Assembly (NCBI GenBank): GCA_030168575.1
Contig: CP115555.1
Coordinates: forward strand, 1,364,001 to 1,428,000
DNA from: Methanomassiliicoccales archaeon LGM-RCC1
Lineage (GTDB): Archaea; Thermoplasmatota; Thermoplasmata; Methanomassiliicoccales; Methanomethylophilaceae
Direction: 5' to 3'
Length of the DNA stretch: 64,000 nt
Of the stretch, positions 54,784-63,339 are shown piece by piece (the first letter of the stretch is position 1; each line of letters starts with the position of its first letter). Under the pieces are notes generated by a model, which saw nothing but the letters and a program-made list of their open reading frames with translations, searched no databases and had not been told where the DNA came from. A program made the position numbers and the translations under genes.

Positions 54784-57700
54784 TCAGTTCACCAGTCTGT
54801 GGAACTCGGTGAGGCTTCTCACACCGGTCTTGCCGTTCCTGGCGACCTTTATGGCTCCGACGGTCATCTCAGCACCCTGTATGGTGGTGATGATCGGGAT
54901 CTGCAGCTCGACCGCGAGTCTCCTCATGGCCGCTCCGTCCCTGATCGCACCGGACTTCTGGGTGGGGGTGTTGATGATCATCTGTATCTTGCCCTCGCGC
55001 ATGGCACTTACGGCGTTGGGTGCCTGATTCTCGCTGACCTTGTACAGGGTGGCGACAGGCACTCCGTGATCGATGAGATACTTAGCGGTTCCCTTGGTGG
55101 CGTAGATCGTGAATCCGAGCTCATCCAGTGCCTTGGCCGACGGAAGGATCTTCTCCTTGTCGTTGTCGTTGACCGTGATGTAGACCCCTCCCGATTCGGT
55201 TGGATAGTTGCATCCGGCAGCGACCTGGGCCTTGTAGCATGCTGCGTAGAAGTCCTCGTCGATTCCCATGACCTCTCCGGTGGATTTCATCTCGGGTGTG
55301 AGGATGCAGTCCACTCCGGGGAGCTTCAGGAACGGGAACACTACCTCCTTGACAGCGTAGTGGTCCAGCTGCTTGTATCCGGTAAGTCCGAAGTCCTTCA
55401 GGGTCTTTCCGAGCATGATCTTGGTGGCGATCTTCGCCATCTGGATTCCGGTGGCCTTGGAGATGAAGGGTACGGTCCTCGATGCTCTGGGGTTGGCCTC
55501 GATCATATAGATCTCGTCGCCCTTGACCGCCAGCTGGAGGTTCATCAGTCCCTTTATGTGCAGTGCGAGTGCGACCCTCTTGGTGATGTCCAGGATCTCG
55601 TCGATCTTGTCCTGTCCGATCATCTTCGGGGGCATGACCATGGTTGCGTCTCCTGAGTGGCATCCGGCGTACTCGACGTGCTCCAGGATTCCTCCGATGT
55701 AGACGTCCGTTCCGTCAGCCACGCAGTCCACATCGATCTCGATGGCGTCGGTGAGGTACTTATCGATCAGGATCGGGTGGTTCCTGGATACCTTGACTGC
55801 GCTCTCGACGTATGTCTTCAGGTCCTCGGTCGAGTAGACGATCTCCATCGCCCTACCTCCAAGGACGTACGAAGGCCTGACGATGACAGGGTATCCGATG
55901 TCCTCTGCGATCTGCTTGGCCTCCTCGAATGAGTATCCGGTTCCGGATGAGGGTTGCTTGATCTTCAGGTCGTCCATCAGCTTGGAGAACCTGCGCCTGT
56001 CCTCTGCCACATCCATATCGTCTGGTGTGGTTCCCAGGACCTTGGTCTTGGTCCCTGCCAGTGCCTTCTCAAGGTCCACCGCCAGGTTGACGGAGGTCTG
56101 TCCTCCGTACTGGCAGATGACTCCGTCGGCATCCTCTGCCTCGATGACGTTCAGGACGTCTCCGAGTGTGAGGGGCTCGAAGTATAGCCTGTCGGACATG
56201 TCGAAGTCTGTCGAGACAGTCTCGGGGTTGTTGTTGACGATGACCGCATCCACTCCCTCCTCCTGAAGGGCCATGACTCCGTGGACACAGCAGTAGTCGA
56301 ACTCGATTCCCTGTCCGATCCTGATGGGTCCTCCTCCTACGATGACGACCTTCTTCTTGTCCTTGGAGGGCTTGGCCTCAGTCTCCCTGCATCCGTATGT
56401 CGAGTAGAAGTAGGGGGTCTTGGCCTCAAACTCTCCCGCACAGGTGTCGACCATCTTGAAGACAGGGACCAGTCCCTGCTTCTTCCTCATGTCGCGTATG
56501 TCCAGCGAGGGGTTGCCGGTGAGCTCTGCGATGGTCTCATCGGAGAATCCCATGAGCTTGGCTTCCTTCAGAACCTCTGGTGTGAGTCCGGCCTTGATCT
56601 TGTACTCCATCTTCACGATGTTCTGGAGCTTCCTTATGAAGAAGACATCCCAGTTGGTGAGCTCTGCGACCTTCTCGGGCGTCCAGCCTCTCCTGAGTGC
56701 CTCTCCCATCACGAATATGCGCTGATCGGTTGCGTGCTTAAGCAGGTCCTCGATGTCCTTGTCCAGGACGTCGAACCTGTCGAGTCCGTTGACTCCGATC
56801 TCCAATGACCTGAGGCCCTTGAGGAGACACTCCTCGAAGGTCCTTCCGATGGCCATGGTCTCTCCGGTGGACTTCATCTGCGTTCCGAGATGCCTGTCCA
56901 CTGTGCGGAACTTGTCGAATGGCCATCTGGCGATCTTAAGCACAACGTAGTCCACTGAAGGCTCGAAGGCCGACATGGTGGTTCCCGTGACCCTGTTGGG
57001 GATCTCGTCCAGCGTGTAGCCGAGACCGATCTTCATCGATACCCTGGCGATGGGGTATCCTGTGGCTTTGGACGCCAGTGCGGATGAACGGGACACACGG
57101 GGGTTGACCTCGATCAGCCTGTAGTCGCCGTTCTTGGGGTTGAATGCGAACTGGACGTTGCATCCTCCCTCGATGTTGAGCTCCCTCATGACCTTGATGG
57201 CTGAGTTCCTGAGCTTGTCCACGTCCTTCTCGGACAGTGTGAGGATGGGAGCACATACGATACTCTCTCCAGTGTGGATTCCCATCGGGTCGATGTTCTC
57301 CATGTTACAGATGATGATGCAGCTGTCGTTGGAATCCCTCATGACCTCGAACTCGATCTCCTTCCATCCCAGTACAGATTCCTCGATGAGGACCTGATGG
57401 ATACGGCTGTAAGCGAGTCCGTGTGCGGTGATCTCCTTCAGCTCCTTTTCGTCGTAGGCGATACCTCCTCCGGTACCTCCCAGCGTGAATGCGGGCCTGA
57501 CCAGGACCGGGTACCTTCCGATCTTCTCGGCTGCCTTGATCGCCTCATCGATGGAGTTGACGCTCTCGGACATCGGGATCGGCTCGCCGATCTTCATCAT
57601 GGCCTCCTTGAACAACTCTCTGTCCTCGGATTTCGCAATGGCATCGGGCTGTGTTCCTATGAGCTCGCAGTGAAGCCTGTCCAGGGTGCCGTTCTCAGCA

Positions 57701-57999
57701 AGCTCTGAACAGATGTTTAGTCCCGTCTGGCCTCCCATTCCGGAGACCACTCCGTCAACGCCTTCCTTCTCTATGATCTTGGCTACCGTCTCGGCGTTAA
57801 GCGGTTCTACGTAGACCGCATCAGCGGTCTCGGTGTCTGTCTGGATGGTTGCAGGGTTGGAGTTAACCAGGACCGTCTTGTATCCTTCTTCCCTGAGGGA
57901 ACGGCAGGCCTGTGTTCCGGAGAAATCGAACTCCGCTGCCTGACCGATGACTATGGGTCCGGATCCGATGACCAGGACCTTCTTGTAATCCTTCTTCAT
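54784..57999 (-). CDS. carB: Carbamoyl-phosphate synthase large subunit CarB
   Basis: 1071-aa synthase that makes carbamoyl phosphate from bicarbonate, 2 ATP and ammonia for pyrimidines and arginine. Two ATP-grasp halves are seen: KKVLVIGSGPIVIGQAAEFD near the N-terminus and KKKVVIVGGGPIRIGQGIEF near residue 550, each with ATP-binding blocks (RPAFTLGGTGGGIAYDEKEL; RPSYVLGGRAMEIVYSTEDL). A C-terminal MGS-like allosteric domain ends the protein (DRSVKNG-like AMREGKIQMIINTPTQKSGA). Full length. The carA stop overlaps the carB start (ATGA). With the defective CarA it probably uses free ammonia. Confidence 0.95.
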   Translation of the reverse strand: MKKDYKKVLVIGSGPIVIGQAAEFDFSGTQACRSLREEGYKTVLVNSNPATIQTDTETADAVYVEPLNAETVAKIIEKEGVDGVVSGMGGQTGLNICSELAENGTLDRLHCELIGTQPDAIAKSEDRELFKEAMMKIGEPIPMSESVNSIDEAIKAAEKIGRYPVLVRPAFTLGGTGGGIAYDEKELKEITAHGLAYSRIHQVLIEESVLGWKEIEFEVMRDSNDSCIIICNMENIDPMGIHTGESIVCAPILTLSEKDVDKLRNSAIKVMRELNIEGGCNVQFAFNPKNGDYRLIEVNPRVSRSSALASKATGYPIARVSMKIGLGYTLDEIPNRVTGTTMSAFEPSVDYVVLKIARWPFDKFRTVDRHLGTQMKSTGETMAIGRTFEECLLKGLRSLEIGVNGLDRFDVLDKDIEDLLKHATDQRIFVMGEALRRGWTPEKVAELTNWDVFFIRKLQNIVKMEYKIKAGLTPEVLKEAKLMGFSDETIAELTGNPSLDIRDMRKKQGLVPVFKMVDTCAGEFEAKTPYFYSTYGCRETEAKPSKDKKKVVIVGGGPIRIGQGIEFDYCCVHGVMALQEEGVDAVIVNNNPETVSTDFDMSDRLYFEPLTLGDVLNVIEAEDADGVICQYGGQTSVNLAVDLEKALAGTKTKVLGTTPDDMDVAEDRRRFSKLMDDLKIKQPSSGTGYSFEEAKQIAEDIGYPVIVRPSYVLGGRAMEIVYSTEDLKTYVESAVKVSRNHPILIDKYLTDAIEIDVDCVADGTDVYIGGILEHVEYAGCHSGDATMVMPPKMIGQDKIDEILDITKRVALALHIKGLMNLQLAVKGDEIYMIEANPRASRTVPFISKATGIQMAKIATKIMLGKTLKDFGLTGYKQLDHYAVKEVVFPFLKLPGVDCILTPEMKSTGEVMGIDEDFYAACYKAQVAAGCNYPTESGGVYITVNDNDKEKILPSAKALDELGFTIYATKGTAKYLIDHGVPVATLYKVSENQAPNAVSAMREGKIQMIINTPTQKSGAIRDGAAMRRLAVELQIPIITTIQGAEMTVGAIKVARNGKTGVRSLTEFHRLVN

Positions 58000-59072
58000 T
58001 GGGACACCCCCTTCACGACAGCGAGGAAGTCATCGTAGAGGAACACCGTGTCCCCCTGTCCAGTGCCTCCCTCTGGGCGGTACTCGTATCCGTACACCGG
58101 GAGCTTGGAATGCTTGAATCCCTCGATGATGTTGTCGTTGAGGTTCGTCTGTGTGACCTCGAGTCCGGCCGCCTTGAGGCTGTCGGGCTCCACGAAGTAG
58201 TCCTGCATCTGGGATGTCATGCAGATGCGACCTTTGATCTTGACAGGCTGGTTGCATCCGTGGTGGCCCAGTTTCATGTGGGAGACCTTTGCTCCCATGG
58301 CGATGGCGAGAATCTCTGATCCCAGCGCGACACCCATGATGGGCATCTTGGACGAGAGCTCTTTGACCGTTGCCACAGTGGGTGCGAGCTCAGGGTCGTT
58401 AGGGCATGCAGGTCCGCTGGAGACTATTACTCCCTTGGCACCGGACTTGATTATGTCCTCGGCCTTAACGTCATAGGGGAACCTGATCACGTTGAACCTC
58501 TCTCCGAGTGTCTCATAAAGTCCGCATCCGGTTCCGCAGTCTATCACCGCAATGGTGACATCCTTTCCGTTATCGAGCTTCTTGACCTCTTTGGGAGAGA
58601 CATCCTTGACGGATTTGTCGACCTTCAGGTCCTTGAGTTCCTTGACTGTCTTCTCTATGTCCGTTCCCTCTTTGACGATCTTTCCCTTCATCGTTCCGCA
58701 CTTGCGGATCTTGAGGGTAAGTTCGCGGGTGTCCACTCCGGTTAAGCCCACTGCTCCCTTCTCGACCATGAAGTCGCCGAGGAGGGTTCCGTTGTAGAAC
58801 TCGGAGGGCTCCGTGCAGAGCTCCCTCATCACTACACCGTTGACGTGGACCTTGTCGGACACATTGAATTCGTCTGTAACGCCATAATTCCCGATCAGAG
58901 GGTAAGTGAATACGATTATCTTCCCTTTGTTCGACGGATCAGTGATTGTCTCCTGATATCCGTCGACCCCTCCGGTCAAAAACACTACTTCTCCAGCTTT
59001 CTCGATGTTGGCACCGATCAGCTGACCATCGAATTTGGTCCCGTCTTCCAGGACCAGGTAGCCTCCTGTCAT
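57996..59072 (-). CDS. carA: Carbamoyl-phosphate synthase small subunit CarA with degenerate glutaminase site
   Basis: 358-aa small subunit with the CarA N-terminal domain (MTGGYLVLEDGTKFDGQLIG, GGVDGYQETITDPSNKGKII) and a class I glutaminase domain. But the nucleophile elbow that normally reads GICLGHQ is GVALGSE: the Cys is A249 and the following HQ is SE. The catalytic His of YHPE is R332 (YRPE), and the ITSQNHG block is MTSQMQD. It therefore cannot hydrolyse glutamine by the known mechanism, as in ammonia-dependent CPS I of vertebrates. It is still kept in an operon with intact carB (ATGA overlap), so it probably has a structural role. Confidence 0.93.
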   Translation of the reverse strand: MTGGYLVLEDGTKFDGQLIGANIEKAGEVVFLTGGVDGYQETITDPSNKGKIIVFTYPLIGNYGVTDEFNVSDKVHVNGVVMRELCTEPSEFYNGTLLGDFMVEKGAVGLTGVDTRELTLKIRKCGTMKGKIVKEGTDIEKTVKELKDLKVDKSVKDVSPKEVKKLDNGKDVTIAVIDCGTGCGLYETLGERFNVIRFPYDVKAEDIIKSGAKGVIVSSGPACPNDPELAPTVATVKELSSKMPIMGVALGSEILAIAMGAKVSHMKLGHHGCNQPVKIKGRICMTSQMQDYFVEPDSLKAAGLEVTQTNLNDNIIEGFKHSKLPVYGYEYRPEGGTGQGDTVFLYDDFLAVVKGVSQ

Positions 59073-62376: not shown

Positions 62377-63339
62377 TTACGGCAGCGAAATGGAACCTGC
62401 TACCCTGAGCTTTCCGCCCTCGAGATACATGATGATCGCCTTGTCACCGGGCTTGTGTATCATGTCGTCGTCCATCTCGAAAGTAACGTTAGCGGTCCTG
62501 AAATCCGAACCATTGTCGACTGCAGTGATCCTGCAGGGCACCATCTGCATCCAGTGACCGATATGGACGACCATTCCCTCTTTGAGGGGCGAGGCCCAGA
62601 ACTTGACGAGCGATACCTGTCCAGAAACGGAGCGGCTCATCTTGACTGAAGGATCGGTTGTGACCACAAATCCCCTGTCCAGCTCCTCTGATTCGATTCC
62701 TCTGAGCGCAAGACCTACATGGTCCCCTTTGATTCCGTCCTGAGCATCAATGTCGTGCTTCTGGATGGACTTCAGGATGACCTCCTTCTTAGTGGGGAAG
62801 ACGGTCATCTTATCGTGGACCTTGAAATATCCGTCTATGACTGAACCGAGAACGACAGTTCCTACGCCCTTGACGTTGAAGTGGCTGTCCACGGGACATG
62901 ATCCGCATGTGCCGTCTCCGGCGGTCTTTGCCTGGGCCTTGGCCATGCCGATGAGCTCCTCCCTAAGTTTTATGGGATCGTCCTCACGAGGCTCATAGTG
63001 CTCAAGAGAGGTACCTGCGAGAAGAGGTGCCAGCTGTTCTGGCTGAATGTAATTCTGGAGGATGACGAATCCCTTGTCTATGCCCAAGGAGTCGACCATT
63101 ACGATGGTCTCCCCTAGGAAGGAATCGATCTTGTCAACCACCAGTACGACGAACTCTGACATCGCGACCGAGTAGAAAAGGGACGACAGTTTCTCGGGGA
63201 ATTTGGAGGGCTCTATGAGGGTGAACGAGTCGTGCCCGTCCTTGTACTCATAGAAGGTCATGTCAGTGACTGTGCCCTTCTTACCGATCTTTCCTGCGTA
63301 ATCCTTTGCTCCCAGTACCGCGATGTTCAGGTTCCCCAT
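62377..63339 (-). CDS. EF-Tu/SelB-like protein without GTP-binding P-loop
   Basis: 320-aa protein in which the domain-2 and domain-3 part of EF-Tu/SelB is clear (VDSHFNVKGVGTVVLGSVID; GIKGDHVGLALRGIESEELD; AVDNGSDFRTANVTFEMDDD). The G domain remnant begins NIAVLGAKDYAGKIGKKGTV with no GxxxxGK[ST] loop, and no NKxD is seen, so it is unlikely to bind GTP normally. Related proteins (EF-Tu/IF-2/RF-3-like) occur in methanogens without known function. It lies between paaK copies and next to the ACT-domain gene. A link to UAG decoding is only speculation. Confidence 0.7.
   Translation of the reverse strand: MGNLNIAVLGAKDYAGKIGKKGTVTDMTFYEYKDGHDSFTLIEPSKFPEKLSSLFYSVAMSEFVVLVVDKIDSFLGETIVMVDSLGIDKGFVILQNYIQPEQLAPLLAGTSLEHYEPREDDPIKLREELIGMAKAQAKTAGDGTCGSCPVDSHFNVKGVGTVVLGSVIDGYFKVHDKMTVFPTKKEVILKSIQKHDIDAQDGIKGDHVGLALRGIESEELDRGFVVTTDPSVKMSRSVSGQVSLVKFWASPLKEGMVVHIGHWMQMVPCRITAVDNGSDFRTANVTFEMDDDMIHKPGDKAIIMYLEGGKLRVAGSISLP

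Follow-up and report, generated by a model that had tools for sequence, protein, structure and literature searches.

In the relevant part of one account, glutamine is given as the donor for all bacterial carbamoyl-phosphate synthases (CPSs), C269 and H353 of CarA are termed essential to glutamine hydrolysis, and ammonia is described as being used by Escherichia coli CPS only at very high concentration (PMC6245113). A second account gives glutamine as the donor for every CPS type but CPS1. There, the human enzyme is described as keeping an inactive glutaminase-like domain structurally, with the Cys replaced by Ser294, and as using outside ammonia, and frog CPS1 is described as retaining the entire triad (PMC4655335). 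CPS I is the only ammonia-only, full-length CPS presented in the pertinent passages of three papers (PMC4655335, PMC6245113, and PMC6022934).

We analyzed a 64,000-nucleotide stretch of DNA (the window) from Methanomassiliicoccales archaeon LGM-RCC1 (GCA_030168575.1, contig CP115555.1, positions 1,364,001 to 1,428,000). The minus strand carries carA, encoding a CPS small subunit without the glutaminase nucleophile (57996 to 59072), and carB, encoding the large subunit (54784 to 57999; 1,071 aa). The carA frame runs uninterrupted over 358 aa and overlaps carB by 4 bp, an arrangement also found in relatives, so the first-pass annotation was right to describe carA as intact beside carB. The protein was identified as CarA by NCBIfam profile scores of 326.9 for PRK12838 (curated cut-off, 221) and 317.3 for TIGR01368 (cut-off, 307.35). 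Its AlphaFold2 model (pLDDT, 92.1) matched E. coli CarA (1c30_B; Z, 48.5; rmsd, 1.8; 351 aligned) and human CPS1 (Z, 44) in structure comparison, and the G359F structure of E. coli CarA was also among the matches. By sequence and by fold, E. coli CarA and human CPS1 are the closest proteins. Elsewhere in the window, the product of 62377 to 63339 (minus strand) has weak similarity to SelB/EF-1alpha, strongest in its second half, and its N-terminal half apparently lacks the GTPase P-loop.

Residues were numbered on E. coli MG1655 CarA aligned to the window CarA. The nucleophile elbow (residues 247 to 253; 58314 to 58334, minus strand) reads GVALGSE in place of GICLGHQ, with Ala249 at the Cys position, as had been read from the sequence at first. 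The E. coli triad C269/H353/E355 thus corresponds to A249/R332/E334. In the catalytic His/Glu loop (residues 330 to 339; 58056 to 58085, minus strand), P360 is also replaced, by Q339, and G359 is kept. Further swaps are E253 for Q273, M289 for N311, D291 for G313, and A222 for G243; we take these to be glutamine/oxyanion-site positions and Q273 to be Gln binding. The earlier claim that the His and other site residues are altered holds for R332 and these four positions, but the triad Glu is kept, and the His itself survives in five of the nine CarA proteins of the clade. In the model, the elbow strand (245 to 248) and helix (250 to 258) are preserved; the R332/E334 loop is of low confidence, with residues 336 to 339 scoring below 50.

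The clade shares these features. Ala or Ser occupies the Cys position in 9/9 members, comprising the window CarA, a same-species genome (G077; 99% identical), G073 (taken as ISO4-G1), and six more relatives. Q273 is replaced by Glu or Asp in 9/9, N311 is lost in 9/9, and G313 is lost in 8/9. ISO4-G1 is a sheep-rumen isolate with a finished genome (PMC4824259), and the same loss at the Cys position there, together with several linked residues changed in common with G077, refutes a sequencing or assembly error, the chance of which is negligible. Another alternative is that CarA still splits glutamine through a different nucleophile, namely a Cys three residues on (GIALGCD), a Ser, or a Glu-activated water. 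A Cys is indeed present at elbow position 252 in 4/9 clade members (L011 to L014), and Glu334 is kept throughout the clade, but the window CarA has S252, with Ala as the elbow residue itself (Gly or Ala in most other cases), and the glutamine-site positions are lost as counted above while the His position varies widely. We regard continued glutamine hydrolysis as extremely unlikely.

A survey of the Cys and His positions across the order, which the first-pass annotation had proposed, was carried out on 147 genomes, 137 of which matched; the count took in 131 CarA copies, each 330 aa or longer, from 124 genomes and left out shorter ones such as the amber-split gene of G034. The Cys was present in 102 copies, three of which had no His, and absent from 29. 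All 29 Cys-less copies belong to family f1 (29/95 copies). Because the Cys is kept in 36/36 copies of families f2 to f6 while G077, ISO4-G1, and the six relatives share its absence, the loss is more than chance. The Cys-less copies lie in 28 genomes, and 23 of these have such copies alone. Six of the eight sub-length fragments were readable and five showed the elbow: G053 lacks the Cys, G002, G003, and G129 have it, and G060 has the Cys without the His and Glu. On a tree of the order built by a quick method with the catalytic columns removed, the Cys label changed at least eight times, with six changes forced by starred branches. The trait had been placed in this methanogen group; it is present in relatives but is neither confined to the group nor universal in it.

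Several genomes of the order carry additional variants. In G037 (L074) and G045 (L089), a Cys-less carA-carB pair lies directly upstream of a Cys-containing pair, about 4.5 to 4.7 kb apart, and by analogy with paired CPS I/CPS II, these tandem operons are possibly a natural ammonia/glutamine CPS pair. G085 and G087 each have a canonical second CarA that may reflect contamination or transfer, because it groups with genera g5/g7 and adjoins a CTP synthase gene. The carA of G034 (G034:C1, L087) is otherwise canonical and has one in-frame TAG (148 + 218 aa); since the order reads UAG as pyrrolysine, this may be either readthrough or a pseudogene.

The source genome consists of one contig (1.66 Mb; 98.8% complete). 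A PF00117 profile search and a protein search of the whole genome found no second CarA, whose presence would have spoken against the initial prediction, and G073 likewise has a single CarA with the same loss. PF00117 gave five matches: the window CarA, GuaA-A, HisH, and the weaker CobQ and PurQ, the last four being names that we presume from motif and neighbors. All four retain the Cys (GxCxG). A general loss of glutaminases across the genome is therefore ruled out, and the loss is specific to CarA. These amidotransferase subunits also leave room for a separate cellular glutaminase that docks on CarAB and supplies ammonia instead of CarA. However, the PF00117 matches look dedicated, and nothing glutaminase-like occurs in the operon or its neighborhood. 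On the PF00117 matches and the gene neighborhood, we consider such docking very unlikely.

OTCase, ATCase, one AmtB, and one GSIII-like glutamine synthetase are encoded in the source genome. CTP synthase (PF06418) is absent from this complete genome (G000) and from ISO4-G1 (G073), and from G075, G079, G080, G081, G082, G084, and G086; it is also absent from G088, G089, G090, G093, G094, and G099. The same profile was found in 14/14 control genomes and in most genomes of other families. CTP may come from salvage or another enzyme in genomes without it.

Both ATP-grasp halves of the window CarB retain R129, R169, E215, E299, N301, R303, R675, R715, E761, E841, N843, R845, and others, residues that we take to be catalytic. 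When CarB proteins from 26 glutaminase-dead and 23 live operons were compared, the catalytic residues, the gate (C232/A251/A314), and A23/G575 were kept wherever covered, and the catalytic, gate, and carbamate-tunnel residues of the window CarB are intact. Positions 230, 258, 262, and 265 were changed in four to six dead lineages versus none or one of the 23 live rows. Convergent change with glutaminase-dead CarA falls on window residues 257 to 264 (E. coli 258 to 265; 57208 to 57231, minus strand), and R265 is kept in the window CarB.

The dN/dS of clade CarA, obtained by Nei-Gojobori counting on four own-clade pairs, was 0.08 to 0.15 (0.09 to 0.13 in the amidotransferase domain), indicating purifying selection. 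Live CarA pairs gave 0.03 to 0.14 in 10/11 cases, the eleventh having saturated dS. These values bear on the explanation that carA is in decay and on its way to being lost, carbamoyl phosphate being supplied by another route or by CarB alone. At a CarB identity of 85% to 90%, the median CarA identity was 0.587 in dead pairs (n = 12) versus 0.729 in live pairs (n = 7), and this faster divergence of clade CarA relative to CarB also fits relaxed constraint. However, in addition to the low dN/dS, the carA frame is open in 9/9 clade members, the model confidence is 92, and 30/84 conserved columns are unchanged across all nine dead lineages. Decay is accordingly a very improbable explanation.

An outgroup of 37 sequences (36 CarA of other families and E. 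coli CarA) defined 114 conserved columns, in which residues that change together with the Cys were sought by comparing 63 live f1 copies with 32 dead ones (the 29 Cys-less copies and the three with the Cys but without the His). Conserved cells were changed at 5.7% in live versus 27.4% in dead copies in the C-terminal domain and at 7.3% versus 15.9% in the N-terminal domain. Beside C269 and H353, the sharpest contrasts were at K202 (changed in 1/63 live versus 28/32 dead copies), I205 (2/63 versus 28/32), P360 (1/63 versus 20/32), and F367 (0/63 versus 18/32); these counts are weakened by relatedness, and p 0.05 is out of reach of a phylogeny-aware test with five independent pairs. In the window CarA, K202 and I205 correspond to Gly and Leu within residues 182 to 185 (58518 to 58529, minus strand), a segment whose change accompanies that of the Cys in almost every Cys-less lineage. 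CarA G359 and P360 and CarB R265 are, we believe, the residues that others mutated to perforate the ammonia tunnel of E. coli CPS.

Outside the order, 84,980 species genomes were scanned with a degenerate pattern that describes CarA lacking the elbow Cys and matched none of the Cys-containing loci compared. At least 120 stretches matched, and 80 loci were listed, of which 71 are CarA without the Cys and nine are not CarA. The elbow residue of the 71 listed CarA is Gly in 65, Ala in three, Ser in two, and Arg in one; both His and Glu are kept in 5/71, the His position varying widely. The carB gene is directly downstream or fused in 64 of these loci, which again argues against a docking glutaminase; four have no room to tell, and three, all in Akkermansia metagenome-assembled genomes (MAGs; L157, L197, and L200), have no adjoining carB despite room. 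Bacillota account for 52/71. By record title, 30 listed loci come from RGIG ruminant-gut MAGs, nine from SIG/SUG, seven from AS, and 25 from others, raw counts that give an impression of enrichment in guts and digesters. On a wider tree of 123 rows, built by the quick method, the label changed 16 times, with 13 changes forced by starred branches. From these sequences, the same loss seems to have arisen many times in gut and other anaerobic microbes.

No other full CarA was found in 46/69 genomes checked from the matches listed (26/40 and 20/29), among them the isolate Hydrogenoanaerobacterium saccharovorans An564; the 69 genomes cover all but two of the 71 listed loci and are mostly MAGs, so a missing second CarA is weak evidence outside the order. 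Among 19 second or third copies read in multi-copy genomes, 16 have the Cys and three (Lederbergia, Aliibacillus, and Kroppenstedtia) lack it. Both CarA found in Aliibacillus and Kroppenstedtia, and two of three in Lederbergia, are Cys-less (L144, L154, and L212; L303, L306, and L319), and each genus has one Gly copy with most of the remaining site intact. An arginine-specific CPS of Bacillus stearothermophilus, reportedly described by Yang in 1997, could be a precedent for Cys-less CarA, because the second CarA in these three Bacillales genomes also lacks the Cys. In a Bacteroidales MAG (L193), a Cys-less CarA is fused to CarB in one frame of at least 1,292 aa, the architecture of CPS I, and the genome also has a separate Cys-containing CarA (L315).

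We conclude that the window carAB probably encodes an ammonia-dependent CPS in which CarA persists in a structural role. The first-pass annotation had predicted ammonia dependence, and the prediction is supported at the sequence level by selection, CarB conservation, operon structure, and the parallel losses in anaerobes; the His kept in 5/9 and the Glu kept in 9/9 clade CarA count against it. The triad is lost from an intact, selected carA, CarB is intact, no second CarA accompanies them, and the downstream enzymes are present; we infer complex formation, ammonia use, entry path, and affinity. Free ammonia would be the nitrogen donor, and CarA, having lost glutamine hydrolysis, would be retained to fold, bind CarB, and shape the ammonia path. 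NH3 from an ammonia-rich gut, with AmtB, would come in around the former glutaminase site or where CarA meets CarB, and would react with carboxyphosphate in CarB, whose product, carbamoyl phosphate, would pass to OTCase (arginine) and ATCase (pyrimidines). Since E. coli CPS is poor with ammonia, a low Km for NH3 would be required of the window CarAB.

More broadly, we lean slightly towards the view that ammonia-only CarAB enzymes form a class that is widespread in prokaryotes and evolved repeatedly, the two-gene equivalent of CPS I, for which N-acetylglutamate (NAG) may be dispensable. The CarA tunnel wall and CarB interface (CarA K202, I205, P360, and G359; CarB 258 to 265) would have been rebuilt after glutaminase loss to admit NH3 directly, and in some methanogens the enzyme would stand in tandem with a glutamine-dependent copy, mirroring CPS I/CPS II, with use set by ammonia supply. 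If Cys-less CarA belong to ammonia enzymes, the two cited statements on glutamine as the donor would not hold in many microbes of guts and digesters, and the "glutamine-hydrolyzing" annotation (TIGR01368) would be wrong for them. Many independent replicates would then be available for studying how ammonia replaces glutamine, a shift familiar from the emergence of the urea-cycle enzyme, and the trait would mark, at the genome level, organisms living with high ammonia. A literature search for Cys-less CarA or ammonia-dependent CarAB in prokaryotes (archaea, methanogens, Methanomassiliicoccales, rumen, and bacteria), with subscription journals mostly outside its coverage, found no report, in line with the earlier remark that the trait was not known for this group; its novelty is provisional.

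Among known systems, the window CarAB resembles E. coli CarAB (CPS II) in its two-gene carA-carB operon, full CarA fold, and retention of all CarB catalytic and gate residues checked, but differs in lacking the triad Cys and His and in the changes at K202, I205, P360, Q273, N311, and G313. The system shares an archaeal setting and anabolic carbamoyl phosphate with the carbamate-kinase-like CPS of Pyrococcus as treated in PMC6022934, ammonia dependence being predicted here; unlike that enzyme, which has an unrelated fold, it acts through an ATP-grasp CarB. The 41-kDa CPS of Methanobrevibacter smithii, as outlined in the same source, is likewise an unusual CPS of a gut methanogen, but it is a short homodimer, whereas the window CarAB is full length. 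These two kinds, the small enzyme of M. smithii and the carbamate-kinase-like CPSs, stand apart. The analogy to vertebrate CPS I, first raised in the first-pass annotation, applies to the replaced nucleophile and the retained glutaminase-like domain, but only as an analogue, and frog CPS1 has the whole triad. The tunnel-blocking Q318 of CPS1 (E. coli G293) is C273 in the window CarA. CPS I is one fused mitochondrial polypeptide needing NAG, whereas the window has two genes, for 358 and 1,071 aa; as read by eye from an alignment with human CPS1, the NAG-site positions T1391, T1394, N1437, and P1439 are kept in the window CarB, and W1410, T1443, and N1449 are replaced by Tyr, Ser, and Gly, respectively. 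Most likely, the window CarAB works like CPS I, yet it does not belong to CPS I: it consists of two genes, and its NAG site, on that reading, is conserved only in part.
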